From: Cystobacter ferrugineus | GTDB taxonomy: Bacteria > Myxococcota > Myxococcia > Myxococcales > Myxococcaceae | Assembly (NCBI RefSeq): GCF_001887355.1 | Contig: NZ_MPIN01000034.1 | Span: 1-39,856, forward strand | Direction: 5' to 3' | Length of the DNA: 39,856 bases | In this document: positions 26,256 through 34,619 of the stretch, piece after piece | Layout of the letters: each line of letters begins with the position of its first letter | Numbering within the stretch: position 1 is the first letter of the stretch | The notes under the pieces: model-generated | Told to the model about the DNA's origin: nothing | The model's input: only the letters and a program-made list of their open reading frames with translations | Databases searched by the model: none | Position numbers and translations under genes: made by a program

Positions 26256-26339
26256 GGCCGCCGATCCTAACGGCGCGGGGGAGGAGTGCACGTGTCTCAT
26301 GACACCCGGAGTCTGATTCCCGTGGGTTCTCGCGTTAAC

Positions 26340-27641
26340 ATGGGTGTCATGACGCCCGCTCGTGCTCTCAACGCGATCCACCTGCGCCAGGGTCATCCCG
26401 ACTTCCTGGATCTGCCCTGGCACCTGCCGCTGGAGGCCTGGACCCGCGAGGTGTGTCCGCGGCTGGTCGAGGTGCCGCGCGGTCTGTCGCGGCACACGGT
26501 CGTCTTCGTGAGCTACGGGCCGGAGATCTACGCGCTCAAGGAGCTGCCCATGCCCATCGGCCAGCGCGAGTACGACGTGCTGCGCGGCCTGGAGGAGCGG
26601 CGGCTGCCCTCGGTCACCCCCGTGGGGCACGCGCGCGTGCGCGCCCCGGAGCAGCCCGGCAACGAGGTGGCCATCCTCTTCACCCAGTACCTGAGCTCGT
26701 CGCTGCCCTACCGCGTGCTCTTCATGAACAAGGGTCTGGAGCGCTACCGCGAGCGGCTCCTCGACGCCATGGCCAGCCTGCTCGTGCGCCTGCACCTGGG
26801 CGGCTTCTTCTGGGGCGATTGCTCCCTGTCCAACGTGCTCTTCCGCCGCGACGCGGGCGAGCTGCAGGCCTACGCGGTGGACGCCGAGACGTCCGAGCTG
26901 CACGCGAAGCTGTCCGACGGCCAGCGCGAGCTGGACCTGATGATCATGGAGGAGAACGTCACCGGGGGCCTGGCGGACCTGGCGGCCATGGAGGAGGTGG
27001 AGCTGCCCTCCTCGCTCGACGTGTACGAGACGGCCCCGAGCATCCGCCAGCGCTACGAGCGGCTGTGGACGGAGATCAACAAGGAAATCCCCATCTCGCG
27101 CAGCGAGAGCTACCGCATCCACGAGCGCATCCGGGCGCTCAATGATCTGGGCTTCTCGGTGGGCGAGGTGGACCTGGTGGCCAGCGGCGACGGCAGCCAG
27201 CTACGCATGCGCACCATCGTCACGGACCGCGAGTACCACCGCCACCAGCTCCACAACCTCACGGGCCTGGTGGCCGAGGAGCGCCAGGCGGCCATGCTGC
27301 TCAACGAGGTGCGCGAGCTGAAGGCCACGCTCTCGCGCGAGCTCAACCGGAGCGTGCCCCTGAGCGTGGCGGCGTTCCGCTGGCTCGACGAGCGCTTCCG
27401 GCCCACCCTCAACAAGTTCCAGAAGGACCTGGGCCCGGCGGCGGACGAGGCCGAGCTGTACTGCCAGGTGCTCGAGCACAAGTGGTTCCTGTCGGAAAAG
27501 GCCAAACGGGACGTGGGCCTGGACGCCGCCATCAAGGCGTACGTGGCGCTGCGCCGCGAGCAGCCCGCCCCCGCGCTCCTGCGCTCGGAGAGTGCCCCCC
27601 TCCTCGTGGAGTCCACCGCGCGGCGGATTCCGTCCGCGTAG
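26340..27641 (+). CDS. DUF4032-domain protein with kinase-like (LPS-kinase/InaA) fold
   Basis: This roughly 433-residue cytoplasmic protein has an N-terminal half resembling RIO/InaA-type small kinases. There is a Lys-containing strand (YALKELPMPIGQREYDVLRG), then the catalytic-loop-like LLVRLHLGGFFWGDCSLSNV, with Asp and Asn placed as in HxDxxxxN loops, then YAVDAETSE in the metal-binding position. The C-terminal half is the DUF4032 region (YERLWTEINKEIPISRSESY, NKFQKDLGPAADEAELYCQV). Homologues are known in actinobacteria and myxobacteria, but the substrate is unknown. Start uncertain: ATG 26340 or 26349 are both plausible; the frame is open to 26286. Divergent from the SDR gene and convergent with mocA. 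Confidence 0.75.
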   Translation: MGVMTPARALNAIHLRQGHPDFLDLPWHLPLEAWTREVCPRLVEVPRGLSRHTVVFVSYGPEIYALKELPMPIGQREYDVLRGLEERRLPSVTPVGHARVRAPEQPGNEVAILFTQYLSSSLPYRVLFMNKGLERYRERLLDAMASLLVRLHLGGFFWGDCSLSNVLFRRDAGELQAYAVDAETSELHAKLSDGQRELDLMIMEENVTGGLADLAAMEEVELPSSLDVYETAPSIRQRYERLWTEINKEIPISRSESYRIHERIRALNDLGFSVGEVDLVASGDGSQLRMRTIVTDREYHRHQLHNLTGLVAEERQAAMLLNEVRELKATLSRELNRSVPLSVAAFRWLDERFRPTLNKFQKDLGPAADEAELYCQVLEHKWFLSEKAKRDVGLDAAIKAYVALRREQPAPALLRSESAPLLVESTARRIPSA

Positions 27642-29614: not shown

Positions 29615-29722
29615 TGCATCCGCCCAGGGGGGCCTGACCCTCCAGGTCGTTCCGTCGGACGTCACATCAAAAGTAGGGTGGACCCGTCCTGGCGAGTCAT
29701 GCCGCCAGACGGAGGTAACCCC

Positions 29723-30877
29723 ATGTTCGGTTTCATCCCGCCCCGGCACCGGCGCGTCCCGCCCGGCACGGGGCGGCTGCTCTTCCGCGAGGAAGGCGTC
29801 GAGTACGAGCAGATCAAGTGCGTGGGCGCGGGCCCCTACGGAGAGCTCATCTTCCTGGCCTGGCGGCACGCCGCGCACCACGGCTCCACCCCGGTGGTGG
29901 TGAAGAGCCTGGGCGGCCTGCAGCCCTGGAAGTCGCGCCGGCGCCTGGAGGCGGAAGCGCGATTCCTGCCGGGGCTCGTGCATCCGGGGATCGCCCGCGT
30001 CCTCGGCTGCCACTCGCGTGGGGCCCAGCACTTCACGGTGTCGGAGTTCATCGAGGGCCACTCCCTGACCAAGCTGCTCGGCTACGCGGCGCTGCGGGGC
30101 AGGCCCCTGAGCGAGGAGTTCGCCCTGTATGTCTGCGCCCAGGTGGCCGGGGCCCTCCACGCCGCGCATTCCATGCGGGGAGGGGACTTCCCACCCTGGG
30201 GCCTGGTTCATCGGAACGTGTGCCCGGACAACATCCGGCTGGATCGCGACGGCCAGCCCAAGCTCACCCATTTCGATCTCGCCGGGTGCCCCCTGCCGGG
30301 GCGCGAGACGCTCACGGGGCTGTCGGATCCGCTCGGAGACCCCGACTACGCCGCGCCCGAGCGGCTGTGCACGCGGCTGGCGCGCGCGAGGCCGGAGGCG
30401 CGGATGGACCTGTTCTCCCTGGGGCTCGTGCTGCTGGAGCTGCTCACCCACCAGCACCTCTACTACCTGGAGACCGTGGACCAGCGCGTGGCGCGGATCC
30501 TCCTGCTGCTCCGGCTCGCCGTCCACCCCATGTCGCGAGCCGAGGCCCGGTCGGTGGATCAGCGGGCGCTCCGGGCCGAGCTCTTCCGTCCCAGTGACGT
30601 GGAGTACGCCGCGCGGGACGTCTCGGAGCCGGTGAAGGCGGTTGTCCACAAGTTGCTGCGCCAGGCGCCCGGGGAGCGCTACGTGACGGCCGCTGAAGTG
30701 CAGGCGGAGCTGCTGCGCTGCCTGAAGGGCCGGAGCCGCTGGTACGGCGCCTGGCGGGCCGCGCGGGAGGTCCGGCAACTGGAGCGAGAGGTGGCCCGCT
30801 TGCCGCACGAGGCCCAGACCGTGGGCTCCTACAGTGCTCGCGGTGGAGACTCCGCGCGCTCCACGACGACCCGATGA
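29723..30877 (+). CDS. Ser/Thr kinase-like protein, probably a pseudokinase
   Basis: In this 384-residue kinase fold the glycine-rich loop is VGAGPYG (34-40) and the ATP-anchoring Lys61 (PVVVKSLGG) is present. The catalytic loop reads VHRNVCPDN, with Asn165 where the catalytic Asp of HRD should be. The metal-binding DFG is D185-L-A. Activity is therefore doubtful, and a regulatory or ATP-sensing role is more likely. The APE-like PDYAAPERL and later helices are conserved. No membrane segment is visible. ATG 29723 is preceded by GGAGGTAACCCC. Its end overlaps the start of the active kinase gene by 4 nt (ATGA), so the two are translated in a coupled way and probably interact. Confidence 0.8.
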   Translation: MFGFIPPRHRRVPPGTGRLLFREEGVEYEQIKCVGAGPYGELIFLAWRHAAHHGSTPVVVKSLGGLQPWKSRRRLEAEARFLPGLVHPGIARVLGCHSRGAQHFTVSEFIEGHSLTKLLGYAALRGRPLSEEFALYVCAQVAGALHAAHSMRGGDFPPWGLVHRNVCPDNIRLDRDGQPKLTHFDLAGCPLPGRETLTGLSDPLGDPDYAAPERLCTRLARARPEARMDLFSLGLVLLELLTHQHLYYLETVDQRVARILLLLRLAVHPMSRAEARSVDQRALRAELFRPSDVEYAARDVSEPVKAVVHKLLRQAPGERYVTAAEVQAELLRCLKGRSRWYGAWRAAREVRQLEREVARLPHEAQTVGSYSARGGDSARSTTTR

Positions 30878-32712
30878 GCCGGGTGGAAGGACAGGCCCGG
30901 TGGGGCGTCCACCCGCGCGGCGCCTTCGTGCTCCGGCGTCCGAGGGGCTGGCGGCGGGCGCGTGCCCGGGTGTTCGAGTTCCCGCTCCCGGGCGTGAACG
31001 TGGGCGGCTATCTCCTGGAGGCGCGGCTGGGGACGGGAGGACAGGGCAGCGTGTACCGGGCGCGCCGCGAGGGCGGGGTGTTCGCGGTGAAGCTCATTCC
31101 GCTGGCGCTCGCGCGCACGTGGGGGCAGCGGGAACTGGAGGTGATGGCGCGGCTGAAGCTGCCCGGTATCGCGGCGCTGGAGGGACATGGACACTGGCCC
31201 GCGGTGGCCCCGCGCTTTCTCTTCCTGGTCACCCGGTACGTGGAGGGCCGCACGGTGTACGCCTGGGCGCGGGAGACGAATCCCTCGGCGCGCGACGTGG
31301 TGGAGAAGGGCCGGGCGCTGGTGGGGGTGTTGGGGGCGGTGCATGGCGCGGGCGTGGTGCACCGGGACGTGAAGGGCGACAACGTGCTGGTGGGCGAGGA
31401 GGGGGGCGAGGTGGTGCTGGTGGACTTCGGTGCCGCGAGCTACGCGAGCGCTCCGCGTCTCACCGAGTTCCTGCCTCCGGGCACGCCGCGCTACCGCAGC
31501 CCCGAGGCGATGCGCTTCCTGCTGGGGCACTCGCGGGGCGAGCGCTACGAGTCCCCGCCGGGGGATGACCTGTGGGCCTTCGGGGTGCTGTTGTACTGGT
31601 TGCTCACGGGGAACTGGCCCTTCGAGGGGACGGAGTGGGGGGCGGTGCTGCACCCGGAGCCGGAGCCGCCGCGCGCGCGCAACCCCCGGGTGCCCGCCGC
31701 CCTGAGCGCGCTGTGCCTGCGCCTGCTGGCGAAGACGCCCGAGGAGCGCTTCGCGGACGCGGAGGCGGTGGGCGAGGCCCTGGAGGCGGCGCTGGCGGGG
31801 GCGGGGGCGGACTGGGAGGTGCCGCTGTGTGACGCCCATGGGCCGGACACCGCCACCACGCACGAGGTGGCGCCACTGGACACGGACGAGGCCCTGGCCC
31901 GCCTCGAGCGGCTGGCGGCCCATGCCGAGCACCACCCGCCCGTGCGGGGCCGTCCCGTGGCCCGGGAGGAGGCCCTGGTGCCCGGGCGTTCCCCGAGGGG
32001 GTGGAGGTGGGGGCTCGGCGGGGTGCTGGTGCTGGGGATGGCGCTCGGGGTGCTTCAATGCCTCTCGGGCCAGGAAATGGCGCCGCCGGGGAGGCCAATG
32101 GACGCTGAGGGGGGCGCGGTGTCCTCTCCCGAGGAATTCATCCCCGCGCCCGTCGTGGTTCCCACGATGCTCGGTAAGGAAGACACGCGCTTGAACAAGG
32201 ACACGAAGATGAAGAAGGCCCTCGGACGCACGGCTCGGGTGGTGGGGGCGGGGCTGGTGTGTCAGGCCTTGACGGGGTGCCCGGCCCCGCAGCGGCAGGT
32301 GATGGCCACTCCGGAGCCCGCCGAGTGCCCGGCGGGAGCGATCGAGGCCATGGCCAAGGAGTTGGCGTTGCCCGTGGGGGAGAAGGCACTGGTCATGTTT
32401 GACAGTCGGCAGGTCAACAACATCCCCGTGCGGGAAGGTCTCGCACACGTGGAAATCGACCTGCGACATGGCCGCTGGGCGGGGAATACCGGTATCTTCA
32501 TTTCTGGAATGCTCACCGTGGGGCGGGACCGTGTGTATGGCCGTTTCACCCAGGCTCGCATTCGGGACGGAGAGCCGTTTCCGGTATGTCTGGAGCTGAC
32601 GGACAAGTTCAAGGGGGGGCGAGGTGTTGTCATCCGGGAGCCCGGCCGGAGTCCAGACACGGTCTTGATCTACTCCTCGGAGTATGTGGTTGCCGTGAAG
32701 CAATTCAAATGA
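30874..32712 (+). CDS. Membrane-anchored Ser/Thr protein kinase with C-terminal extracytoplasmic domain
   Basis: In this 612-residue protein the kinase domain (about 45-310) is complete: GTGGQGSV loop (53-60), Lys73 in FAVKLI, H163-R164-D165 and Asn170 in HRDVKGDN, D184-F-G, and the activation-segment end YRSPEAM. A transmembrane helix follows at about 378-396 (WGLGGVLVLGMALGVLQCL). The outer part has MKKALGRTARVVGAG...LTGC, which looks like a lipoprotein signal but is in frame with the kinase, then a beta-rich domain with VYGRFTQARIRDGEPFPVCL. I recall similar fusions in other myxobacterial kinases, so one gene is preferred; a separate lipoprotein gene from ATG 32209 is the alternative. Coupled to the pseudokinase upstream. 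Confidence 0.82.
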   Translation: MSRVEGQARWGVHPRGAFVLRRPRGWRRARARVFEFPLPGVNVGGYLLEARLGTGGQGSVYRARREGGVFAVKLIPLALARTWGQRELEVMARLKLPGIAALEGHGHWPAVAPRFLFLVTRYVEGRTVYAWARETNPSARDVVEKGRALVGVLGAVHGAGVVHRDVKGDNVLVGEEGGEVVLVDFGAASYASAPRLTEFLPPGTPRYRSPEAMRFLLGHSRGERYESPPGDDLWAFGVLLYWLLTGNWPFEGTEWGAVLHPEPEPPRARNPRVPAALSALCLRLLAKTPEERFADAEAVGEALEAALAGAGADWEVPLCDAHGPDTATTHEVAPLDTDEALARLERLAAHAEHHPPVRGRPVAREEALVPGRSPRGWRWGLGGVLVLGMALGVLQCLSGQEMAPPGRPMDAEGGAVSSPEEFIPAPVVVPTMLGKEDTRLNKDTKMKKALGRTARVVGAGLVCQALTGCPAPQRQVMATPEPAECPAGAIEAMAKELALPVGEKALVMFDSRQVNNIPVREGLAHVEIDLRHGRWAGNTGIFISGMLTVGRDRVYGRFTQARIRDGEPFPVCLELTDKFKGGRGVVIREPGRSPDTVLIYSSEYVVAVKQFK

Positions 32713-32778: not shown

Positions 32779-33696
32779 GTGTTCACTTCACCTCTGATGT
32801 TGTCGCTCTTCATGGGCGCATCCGCTCCCTTCCAGATGTGTCCTCCTCCGGAGGATGTGGAGGGTCGATGCATCGAGTTGACCGCGGGGGCGTTGGCGGA
32901 GATGCACGAGGTCCAGTTGAGTCCGGGATTGATGACGACGTTTGTCTTCGACTCGGACGTGCGCCCGGACGGAATGACGCTGGAGGATTCCGGTCGATTC
33001 GAGGTAGCGGAGCTTGGAAAACACACGTTGGCGCTCATGCCCACGGAAAATCCGAGGAGCGAGAAGCCTGGTGCGTTGACGGTGTGCTTCGCGGATGAGG
33101 CCGCACCCGCGTGTGTCTCCTTCCGGCTGCTCATGCATCCCGTAATGGCCGAACGGCAGGTCCGGGTTCTGCGCCATCCTCGTTCGGCGAGTTCGCTGGA
33201 AGCGGAATTGAGGGAAGCTCACGAGGAGAATGACCGGCTCCGCGCGGAACTCGCGAGGTTGAACGCCGGACATGACACGCCGCTCGGACTCGCGGGAATG
33301 TTGGTGTCTGGAGTGGTGGACGAGCGTGGAATGTCTTGTGTGCCCGGTGATCCCGTCCAACCGCTGGGCACGGTGCTGATCACGGCGGAGTTCTCCACCT
33401 GCCGAACTTCCACGAGGGCAATCGTACGGGTTCGGGTGCGGAACAACAGTGAGATGCCCTGGACAGCTCACGGGGCGAAGCTGGTGGGCCCGAAGGGTGA
33501 ATCCTGGCGAGGTTCGGTGTGGCCCGAGGAACCCATTCTGCCGAGAACATTGGCTGATCTCTTCATCGAGGCGCGGGTCGAGGACGTGCGGACGGAGGGG
33601 CCGTTCGTCTTGAAGTTGTGGGAGGCGAACGGGTCACGCACCGTGCGGCTGGGCCGTGTGGTCTTCCCCGTGCTGGGCGCGGGGACTGCCTTTTGA
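32779..33696 (+). CDS. DUF2381 (TIGR02268, Myxococcus paralogous family) protein
   Basis: This 305-residue exported protein starts at GTG 32779, giving a signal peptide MFTSPLMLSLFMGASA. The body has the pattern of the Myxococcus DUF2381 family: early strands (GLMTTFVFDSDVRPDGMTLE), FRLLMHPVMAERQVRVLR, a short coiled coil (SLEAELREAHEENDRLRAEL) and a second beta domain (RVRVRNNSEMPWTAHGAKLV). The function of the family is unknown. Its members are often encoded next to Ser/Thr kinases, as here, 66 bp behind the kinase. This suggests an extracytoplasmic partner or sensor for the kinase, which is an inference from context. Confidence 0.78.
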   Translation: MFTSPLMLSLFMGASAPFQMCPPPEDVEGRCIELTAGALAEMHEVQLSPGLMTTFVFDSDVRPDGMTLEDSGRFEVAELGKHTLALMPTENPRSEKPGALTVCFADEAAPACVSFRLLMHPVMAERQVRVLRHPRSASSLEAELREAHEENDRLRAELARLNAGHDTPLGLAGMLVSGVVDERGMSCVPGDPVQPLGTVLITAEFSTCRTSTRAIVRVRVRNNSEMPWTAHGAKLVGPKGESWRGSVWPEEPILPRTLADLFIEARVEDVRTEGPFVLKLWEANGSRTVRLGRVVFPVLGAGTAF

Positions 33697-33722: not shown

Positions 33723-34619
33723 TCAATCACTACTCGCGGTCCGGTGGTTGGACTCGCATAGCCACAGTTCATCGGTGCGGTGCTTGCAGATGAATCCGGG
33801 TCCGCAGGCGGCGGAATCCCCGGGCGTGCACTTCTTGCGACACCGGTACAGGTCACACACCGAGTCCTCGGGACAGAACGGACCTTCGGCCTGGGTGTCA
33901 CAGGGTTGTCGGCATCCCATCCACACCTCGTCCGGAGACAGGGGGTAGTCGCCGACGGTGCAGACTTGTTCCCGCTCGCAAGGGGTCTGCTGACAGTTCT
34001 CCCCGTGTACCGTGGCGCAGACGGAAATGCGCGGGCCCACCGAAACGCACTGCTGTCCCTCGGGGCAGGTGCGCCCCTCGCACGTGGGCTGACACACAGC
34101 ACCGGTGGGCAGGTCCTGACAAAAGAAGCCCTCCGGACAACTGGTGGGGTCGTCCGGCTGGCATGGGCGGCCGCACCGGTAATGGCAGCGCAGCCCTTGT
34201 TCACAGCCGTACTGCCGCTCGCGAGTGAAGCCCGCGCATACTTCTCCTTCCTTGCGATCTCCCACGAGGGAGCAGGCGTTGATGAGGTCCTTGCCGCTGT
34301 CGGATGTATAGGTCTGGCAGGTGAACCCCTCTGGACACTGCGAGTCCGTCATGCATCTGCTATCCACACAGTAGCTGTGATGGAGCACCATGCTGAAGAA
34401 GCAGCGCAGCCGCGGATCACAGTCCGCGTCTGTTTCGCAATCCCGGCCATAGGTGAGTGCGCTCTGCCGCTCGACCGGAGTCAGCATGGGAATGACATCC
34501 CGCTGCTGGGCGTGTGTTGGTTTCCATCCAGGGACAAGTGCGGCGGAGGCGAGCAGCCATAGCATGGGGAAGGGGAGGAGAACGCCGACGAGGACCGTGC
34601 CCAAGATGCGCCAGTTCAT
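33723..34619 (-). CDS. Cysteine-rich exported or membrane-anchored protein
   Basis: This 298-residue protein has an N-terminal hydrophobic segment (ILGTVLVGVLLPFPMLWLLA) acting as signal peptide or anchor. About thirty cysteines are arranged in repeats such as CETDADCDPRLRC, CMTDSQCPEGFTC, CQPDDPTSCPEGFFC and CTPGDSAACGPGFIC. Each resembles the C-x5-C-x5-C disulphide modules common in myxobacterial secreted proteins. No enzyme motif. Probably an extracellular binding or structural protein. The ATG at 34619 follows the small lipoprotein gene by 18 bp in the same direction, so they form a two-gene unit. It is convergent with the DUF2381 gene, 26 bp away. Confidence 0.72.
   Translation of the reverse strand: MNWRILGTVLVGVLLPFPMLWLLASAALVPGWKPTHAQQRDVIPMLTPVERQSALTYGRDCETDADCDPRLRCFFSMVLHHSYCVDSRCMTDSQCPEGFTCQTYTSDSGKDLINACSLVGDRKEGEVCAGFTRERQYGCEQGLRCHYRCGRPCQPDDPTSCPEGFFCQDLPTGAVCQPTCEGRTCPEGQQCVSVGPRISVCATVHGENCQQTPCEREQVCTVGDYPLSPDEVWMGCRQPCDTQAEGPFCPEDSVCDLYRCRKKCTPGDSAACGPGFICKHRTDELWLCESNHRTASSD

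Follow-up and report, generated by a model that had tools for sequence, protein, structure and literature searches.

The window studied here, which is the whole of contig NZ_MPIN01000034.1 (39,856 nucleotides) from the 12-Mb genome of Cystobacter ferrugineus, carries two adjacent genes for proteins of the kinase fold, the first of which appears to have lost catalysis while the second appears to have kept it. K1 (29723..30877, + strand) is a soluble protein of 384 amino acids and a predicted pseudokinase which, judged from its alignment, is without both catalytic aspartates, those of HRD and DFG, whereas K2 (30874..32712, + strand) is a membrane Ser/Thr kinase of 612 amino acids with complete catalytic residues. 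We propose that K1 regulates K2 by non-catalytic means, a reading whose probability we put slightly above one half (about 0.52). K2 would be the enzyme, and K1, its catalytically dead cytoplasmic partner, would control it either allosterically or by acting as a pseudosubstrate of the K2 kinase domain; K1 would thus have no phosphotransfer, bind K2 and alter K2 activity. A third gene encodes a DUF2381/TIGR02268 protein (32779..33696, + strand), and the three products probably make up one co-inherited signalling module with several diverged copies in related myxobacteria, in which the tail of K2 and/or the DUF2381 protein, both presumably located outside the cytoplasm, would sense something there.

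Two overlapping kinase genes

That two adjacent open reading frames of the kinase fold occupy positions 29723-32712 was already stated in the initial annotation of this DNA and is borne out by the Pfam Pkinase model (PF00069, gathering score 31.7 bits), passed by K1 with 83.2 bits and by K2 with 100.1 bits. The annotation was also right that K1 keeps the ATP-binding lysine and reads HRN for HRD. The beta-3 lysine, K61 (29903..29905, + strand), is evident from the alignment with relatives, and H163-R164-N165 (30209..30217, + strand), in which the catalytic Asp is replaced by Asn, is identical in two orthologues (G032 and G033). K1 further retains the glycine loop (GAGPYG), the helix-C glutamate E78 and the catalytic-loop asparagine N170. 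The second motif had been given as DLA in place of DFG, which turned out to be a shifted register. It is obtained from a gapped BLASTP alignment of K1 with K2 (28% over 181 amino acids) because K2 has one extra residue in the loop between HRD and DFG. Members of the K1 family align without interruption from one motif to the other (P-K-L-T-H183-F184-D185 in K1 against, for example, V-K-L-V-D-F-G in relatives, many of which have D-F-G or D-F-A at this position), F184 corresponds to the DFG Phe in a column that is nearly invariant among 44 aligned K1 proteins (of 46 on hand), and the K1 family profile likewise aligns with PknB ungapped at this place. K1 therefore reads HFD for DFG (H183-F184-D185, 30269..30277, + strand; Asp to His and Gly to Asp), and this too is identical in both orthologues. 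With a pseudokinase taken as a kinase-fold protein that lacks at least one of the VAIK Lys, the HRD Asp and the DFG Asp, K1 belongs to this class.

The structural residues R164, G205, E213 and D229 are invariant across the 44 aligned K1 proteins, and an AlphaFold2 model of K1 is a confident kinase fold (predicted local distance difference test score 82.7, predicted template modelling score 0.86) whose best matches among solved structures, in tied rows, are MST3 (Z 27.0, root mean square deviation 3.2, 277 residues aligned) and PknB (Z 26.6, deviation 2.6, 254 residues aligned). A phmmer search of PDB sequences with the window K1 alone gave no match at 1e-14, and no K1 relatives were found in a separate collection of genome contigs. 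No 19-residue Kyte-Doolittle window of K1 reaches 1.6.

K2 has all kinase motifs and a membrane segment, as the initial annotation held. Its catalytic set comprises K73, E87, H163-R164-D165 (31360..31368, + strand), N170 and D184-F185-G186 (31423..31431, + strand), with HRD and D184 invariant in an alignment of 40 of the 60 K2 proteins on hand, from which the incomplete K2 of locus L109 was left out. The numbering of H-R-D/N as residues 163-165 in both proteins, which had been read as a trace of duplication, is true; the shared number is nevertheless a coincidence without weight for that claim, because the Pfam kinase match begins at residue 28 in K1 and at residue 48 in K2. K2 contains a single hydrophobic segment by Kyte-Doolittle (19-residue windows starting at 379-381, peak 1.86), predicted to span the membrane at about residues 379-399 (32008..32070, + strand). 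Structure prediction gives the kinase domain, a low-confidence stretch at 392-470 and a beta-rich C-terminal domain, also apparent in the alignment, at about 481-612 (32314..32709, + strand); C469, just before this tail domain, C485 and C572 are invariant in the 40 aligned proteins. The model for PknB-type PASTA kinases (NF033483) scores 117 bits on K2, with a curated cut-off of 450. A second hydrophobic stretch, residues 456-468 (32239-32280), ends at C469 and resembles a mid-protein lipoprotein signal. The idea of an internal start at M446 that would yield a separate lipoprotein was dropped, the Met being Thr in both orthologues.

The 4-nt overlap of the two genes noted in the initial annotation is confirmed: the stop of K1 and the start of K2 share ATGA (30874..30877, + strand), which is identical in the two orthologues, as is the gene order xdhC-K1-K2-DUF2381 (K1 identity 93%). 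Overlaps of this kind are common in bacterial operons, and by itself the ATGA says only that K1 and K2 are made together. A Shine-Dalgarno-like GGAGGT (29711..29716, + strand) lies 6 nt 5' of the K1 start codon, again in both orthologues too. The third gene of the module matches DUF2381 with 118.8 bits (cut-off 29.2) and TIGR02268 with 191.5 bits (curated cut-off 76.15).

Recurrence of the module and loss of catalytic residues

A search of the window's genome with K1 gives 83 matches at an E-value of 1e-5, and K2 is absent from them. Eight other genes match at 4.2e-25 or better, six of which stand beside a K2-like kinase gene and a DUF2381 gene, and the genome has at least seven modules, namely that of the window and those of C41, C25, C36, C29, C6 and C2. 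To describe the wider occurrence we use two sets of loci and call a kinase incomplete when at least one of the Lys, HRD Asp, Asn and DFG Asp is missing. The first set was assembled by K1 match and, separately, by DUF2381 matches in seven genomes, mostly the best-scoring ones. It holds 31 K1-K2-DUF2381 modules; 33 of its 34 paired K1 proteins are incomplete (the complete one is in L107), as against a single one (L109) of 61 K2 proteins with a DUF2381 neighbour. These counts omit K1 and K2 rows below 200 bits or lacking the catalytic region (K1 in L041, L094, L095 and L105; K2 in L052, L057, L066, L067, L076 and L103), do not treat L050, with K1 on the opposite strand, as paired, and include as complete among the 60 K2s the one at L038:9169, a frame-split copy in which the Lys is unseen. 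In the part fetched by DUF2381 (L051-L110) a K1 gene lies within 3.6 kb on the same strand for at least 22 of 50 K2 genes, some stretches ending early, and by hand count the K1 is incomplete in 21 of these 22 modules, one of which (L106) had been picked near an already known K1.

The second set was obtained by searching a profile of the 44 K1 proteins in four genomes of another genus, which had also given some first-set loci. The profile separates 39 members (332-471 bits) from all other kinases (at most 204 bits); 38 were fetched, the remaining one being already in the profile as L049. K2 is found within 5 kb of 33 of the 38 K1 genes, in 29 cases with DUF2381 as well, and 27 of the 33 paired K1 proteins are incomplete versus none of the 33 K2 proteins (Fisher p 9e-13, relatedness ignored). 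For a base rate we took 40 further kinases of the window's genome from the top of its K1 match list, hence the most K1-like; two of them are incomplete, and neither is without both aspartates. A published count for M. xanthus gives 11 pseudokinases among 99 kinases (PMC6791715). The description of a pseudokinase beside a complete, predicted active membrane kinase in the initial annotation is thus supported and can be generalised, related genomes showing an incomplete K1 in most cases and a complete K2 in almost all. Such recurrent pairing suggests that the dead proteins are relics less often than they are regulators.

The partners are also inherited together. Tree distances of K1 and K2 correlate across 31 modules with a Mantel r of 0.84, a value reached by none of 9999 permutations, and in 60 modules, with L031 and L032 left out as near-copies, r is 0.877 (not permuted), or 0.64 when DUF2381 is allowed for (none of 4999 permutations as high). 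The gene order in these 60 modules is K1-K2-DUF2381 in 33, DUF2381-K2-K1 in 23 and different in four. Some loci depart from the common arrangement. In L155, L164, L172 and L181 a K2-to-K1 pair lacks DUF2381, K2 is short (401-461 amino acids) and K1 has HFT or NFT for DFG. In Myxococcus xanthus AM003 (L189) K1 has HRA, and only the last 221 of 633 K2 residues match upstream of it, which may mean that the kinase part of K2 was replaced or lost.

In a tree calculated without the catalytic columns K1 and K2 form two clades with full support (Shimodaira-Hasegawa-like approximate likelihood ratio test, SH-aLRT, 100), each with several genera, and the window K1, itself included among the 44 profile rows and therefore assigned to the family by the tree, falls in the K1 clade. 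Three proteins first scored as K1 or K2 (L041, L066:3917 and L076:2106) lay outside both clades and were then used as controls. When 43 other kinases are included, K1 is nearer to them than to K2 (median path 3.31 versus 5.26). The closest relatives of K1 are K1 proteins elsewhere, some of them intact and unpaired. K1 and K2 stay apart in the free tree, but their union in one clade is not rejected by the approximately unbiased (AU) test (p 0.288). K1 and K2 are separate, old families, for which a very old common origin is compatible with the AU test. Divergence after duplication of one local gene, as put forward in the initial annotation, is not supported, the two not being nearest relatives as recent tandem duplicates should be, and the 4-nt overlap, like the shared residue number, does not count in favour of duplication.

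Fifteen of 84 K1 proteins are complete, and on the tree of these 84 at least four changes between complete and incomplete are needed, with at least four for the HRD Asp, seven for the Asn, five for the DFG Asp and eight for the Lys. The losses differ by branch: one has HRA together with Arg and NFG, another the changes Lys to Arg and Asn to His, others HRA or NRD beside an intact DFG, or HFG beside an intact HRD, and the window's genus has HRN and HFD. Asn165, whose conservation in orthologues the initial annotation took as its touchstone, is kept together with HFD in G032 and G033, in spite of synonymous changes in some of those codons, but it does not extend to the orthologue by position in G034 (45% identity, beside xdhC), which has HRD but fails elsewhere (Asn to His, HLE for DFG, Lys to Arg). 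The His common to the K1 of the window's genus and of G034 at the position of the DFG Asp suggests that this Asp was lost first, but both branches are long, and the tree tool gives a warning about their joining.

Regulator, adaptor or relic

Several results speak against a regulatory role of K1, and we weigh them here together. Thirty of the 61 K2-DUF2381 pairs have no K1 in the fetched stretch, some stretches ending too soon. All catalytic residues are present in six of the 33 paired K1 proteins of the second set and in one of the 34 of the first, which shows that a K1 can be paired without being dead. Unpaired K1 proteins are incomplete as well, five of 12 in the first set and four of five in the second (these four with Asn replaced and DFA, the fifth complete), and on independent branches the comparison of dead K1 with pairing is limited to two or three pairs. 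The G034 K1 stands beside xdhC, and the 17 kb retrieved there contain neither K2 nor DUF2381, which fits either regulator or decay. The pooled ratio of nonsynonymous to synonymous substitution rates (dN/dS) of K1 in the window's genus is 0.59 (95% bootstrap 0.36-0.98, pairs 0.46-0.87), close to the K2 kinase domain (0.46-0.60) and well above the values of the adjacent xdhC (0.13-0.16); K1 is kept, but under weak constraint. Three K1 copies are broken or short beside a complete K2 and DUF2381: in L094 the gene is split across two frames, in L095 about the first half only is matched and in L105 about the first 60%. Co-evolution does not single out the kinase domain of K2 either. In the 33 modules with K1 first, K1 correlates with the K2 kinase domain at 0.78, but in the 23 of opposite order its correlation with the tail (0.54) is at least as good as that with the kinase (0.45), which is what linkage on the DNA would predict. 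Because the preference of K1 is not kept in the opposite gene order, linkage on the DNA suffices for these correlations, and we therefore make no claim of contact from co-evolution. A chain of partial correlations over 60 modules (K1-K2 kinase 0.61, K1-tail 0.06, DUF2381-tail 0.56), at one time taken as a sign of contact although it mirrors the commoner order of the genes, was withdrawn when the control by gene order failed; the K1-K2 kinase value drops to 0.09 among distant pairs.

The nearest rival is that K1 serves as an adaptor or scaffold, phosphorylated by K2 and then recruiting a downstream protein in the manner of the MviN pseudokinase domain. The genetics of pairing and co-inheritance would be the same as for a regulator, and recruitment by MviN and scaffolding by EssB/YukC have been reported in the part of the review drawn on here (PMC12599244). 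The module in the window, however, encodes no obvious downstream partner, and a helix-turn-helix protein between K1 and K2 is seen in two paralogous modules, without a counterpart in the window. We regard an adaptor as somewhat unlikely. The proteins in question, both with HTH_3, lie in the C25 (L037:8946-9401, +) and C41 (L036:5173-5793, -) modules, whereas the window kinases overlap directly.

A serious rival, which we nevertheless consider unlikely, is that K1 is dispensable and decaying, simply carried along with K2. The dN/dS with its upper bound of 0.98, the many different forms of catalytic loss and the high degeneracy of some K1 proteins, such as L077 (A/E HRS-S KFV), would be expected of a relic, and on account of the broken K1 copies beside complete K2s we lowered the probability of the regulator from 0.55 to 0.52 and raised that of decay slightly. 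K2 copies are sometimes broken as well, in the window's genome by an in-frame stop at L052:10879-12777 (+) and by a frame split in the second K2 of L038 (9169-11075, +); whole-gene loss is thus found on both sides, and beside a live partner it is seen for K1. Against decay, all 34 paired K1 genes of the first set and all 38 of the second are open frames (one stop in the L004 match comes from the match running beyond the gene end), HRN and HFD are identical in three genomes despite the synonymous changes, the predicted fold is confident, four structural residues are invariant in 44 proteins, and K1 is co-inherited with K2 across several genera.

It is very unlikely that K1 has an unusual activity of its own, either binding of nucleotide without Mg together with weak phosphotransfer, or some other transfer as in SelO and SidJ. 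K61, the GAGPYG loop, E78 and N170 do remain, and D185 lies two residues past the lost DFG Asp, but in the family register neither catalytic aspartate is left, and relatives have lost various residues, the beta-3 Lys and the Asn among them, so that they share no new active site. In-place duplication of one kinase gene, with copies diverging into regulator and catalyst, could draw on the adjacency, the 4-nt overlap and one deep clade tolerated by the AU test, but it is refuted as a local event by the separate clades, the greater closeness of K1 to other kinases and the absence of K2 from the 83 matches, and we hold it to be highly improbable.

Returning to K1 as a regulator of K2, a broader proposal can be made tentatively, namely that myxobacteria of this family have possibly multiplied a bacterial analogue of the heterodimers of receptor kinases, in the form of many parallel modules, each with a DUF2381 protein, a membrane kinase and a cytoplasmic partner of the kinase fold to itself, in which this partner repeatedly shed catalysis for an allosteric job. 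If this is true, regulation of kinases by pseudokinases would be a common, many-copy design in bacteria and not a matter of isolated cases. A co-inherited pair with complete and incomplete versions of the partner, in several copies per genome and with relatives in Myxococcus, allows one to ask whether a dead kinase controls a live one in bacteria, and cognate and non-cognate pairs from one genome can be used for this question.

Surroundings of the module and known systems

A further kinase-like protein of the window (26286-27638) has a Kdo/WaaP-type match and a DUF4032 domain. The minus-strand gene next to the module (33723-34619) is doubled in both orthologous loci (L031, L032), and there the C-terminal 58-60 residues of DUF2381 are matched beside the second copy of this gene, as if a stretch had been duplicated. 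Upstream of K1 in two paralogous loci of the same genome (L037:5526-6128, +, and L036:8858-9574, -) there is a small lipoprotein-like gene which partly matches PDC-M17A, a candidate-defence model of PADLOC, at about 123 bits, none being seen in the window module, and a plasmid-type RepA_C protein (L037:3032-4471, +) near the C25 module may hint at mobility of the module. The PADLOC anti-phage kinase models (PD-T4-6, mad6) give at most 117 bits for K1 and 150 bits for K2, with many of them matching together, which might hold for any Ser/Thr kinase, in a library without cut-off and with no search for a partner gene. The reading of the module as a phage-defence system was dropped, the kinase matches being unspecific and the PDC-M17A match lying in two paralogous modules and not in the window.

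DivL of Caulobacter, a pseudokinase linked with CckA, has a histidine-kinase fold unrelated to Hanks-type kinases. Like K1, the Caulobacter pseudokinase is a bacterial one coupled to other signalling proteins, in its case in asymmetric division, according to the part of the source used (PMC5361649). Myxococcus xanthus has 99 Ser/Thr kinases and 11 reported pseudokinases, seven of them in developmental gene groups (PMC6791715, citing Perez 2008), and is thus a further myxobacterium with pseudokinases; as far as the portion consulted goes, this account contains no pairing with a membrane kinase and DUF2381. Bacterial Hanks-type pseudokinases in general are described, in the excerpted text of a review that covers several pseudokinase families, as largely unexplored experimentally (PMC12599244). 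MviN and EssB/YukC, treated in the same excerpt, resemble K1 in having a Hanks-type fold, lost catalytic motifs and reported non-catalytic roles, recruitment and scaffolding, respectively, but differ in being pseudokinase domains of membrane proteins from other taxa. The text of that review has no word starting with "myxo" and no DUF2381, and the same excerpt describes no case in which genes for a pseudokinase and a membrane kinase are inherited together. Other bacterial pseudokinase families on record are ActPs1-3, GLW, CP1, DYD and DLHK, for which a published atlas provides profiles. The literature searched, with most subscription papers (including Perez 2008) outside it and an earlier mention therefore possible, held no papers on DUF2381/TIGR02268 or PDC-M17 and no description of the K1-K2-DUF2381 pairing. 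We therefore place K1 in an already known kind, the bacterial pseudokinases, while its pairing with K2 and DUF2381 is apparently new within the literature searched.

Parallels for the role proposed here are also found outside bacteria. In ErbB3-EGFR, STRAD-LKB1 and KSR-RAF a dead kinase domain controls a live one, and ErbB3 also has HRN. The partnership proposed here differs from these systems in that the predicted dead partner is a separate soluble bacterial protein in which the DFG Asp is gone too.

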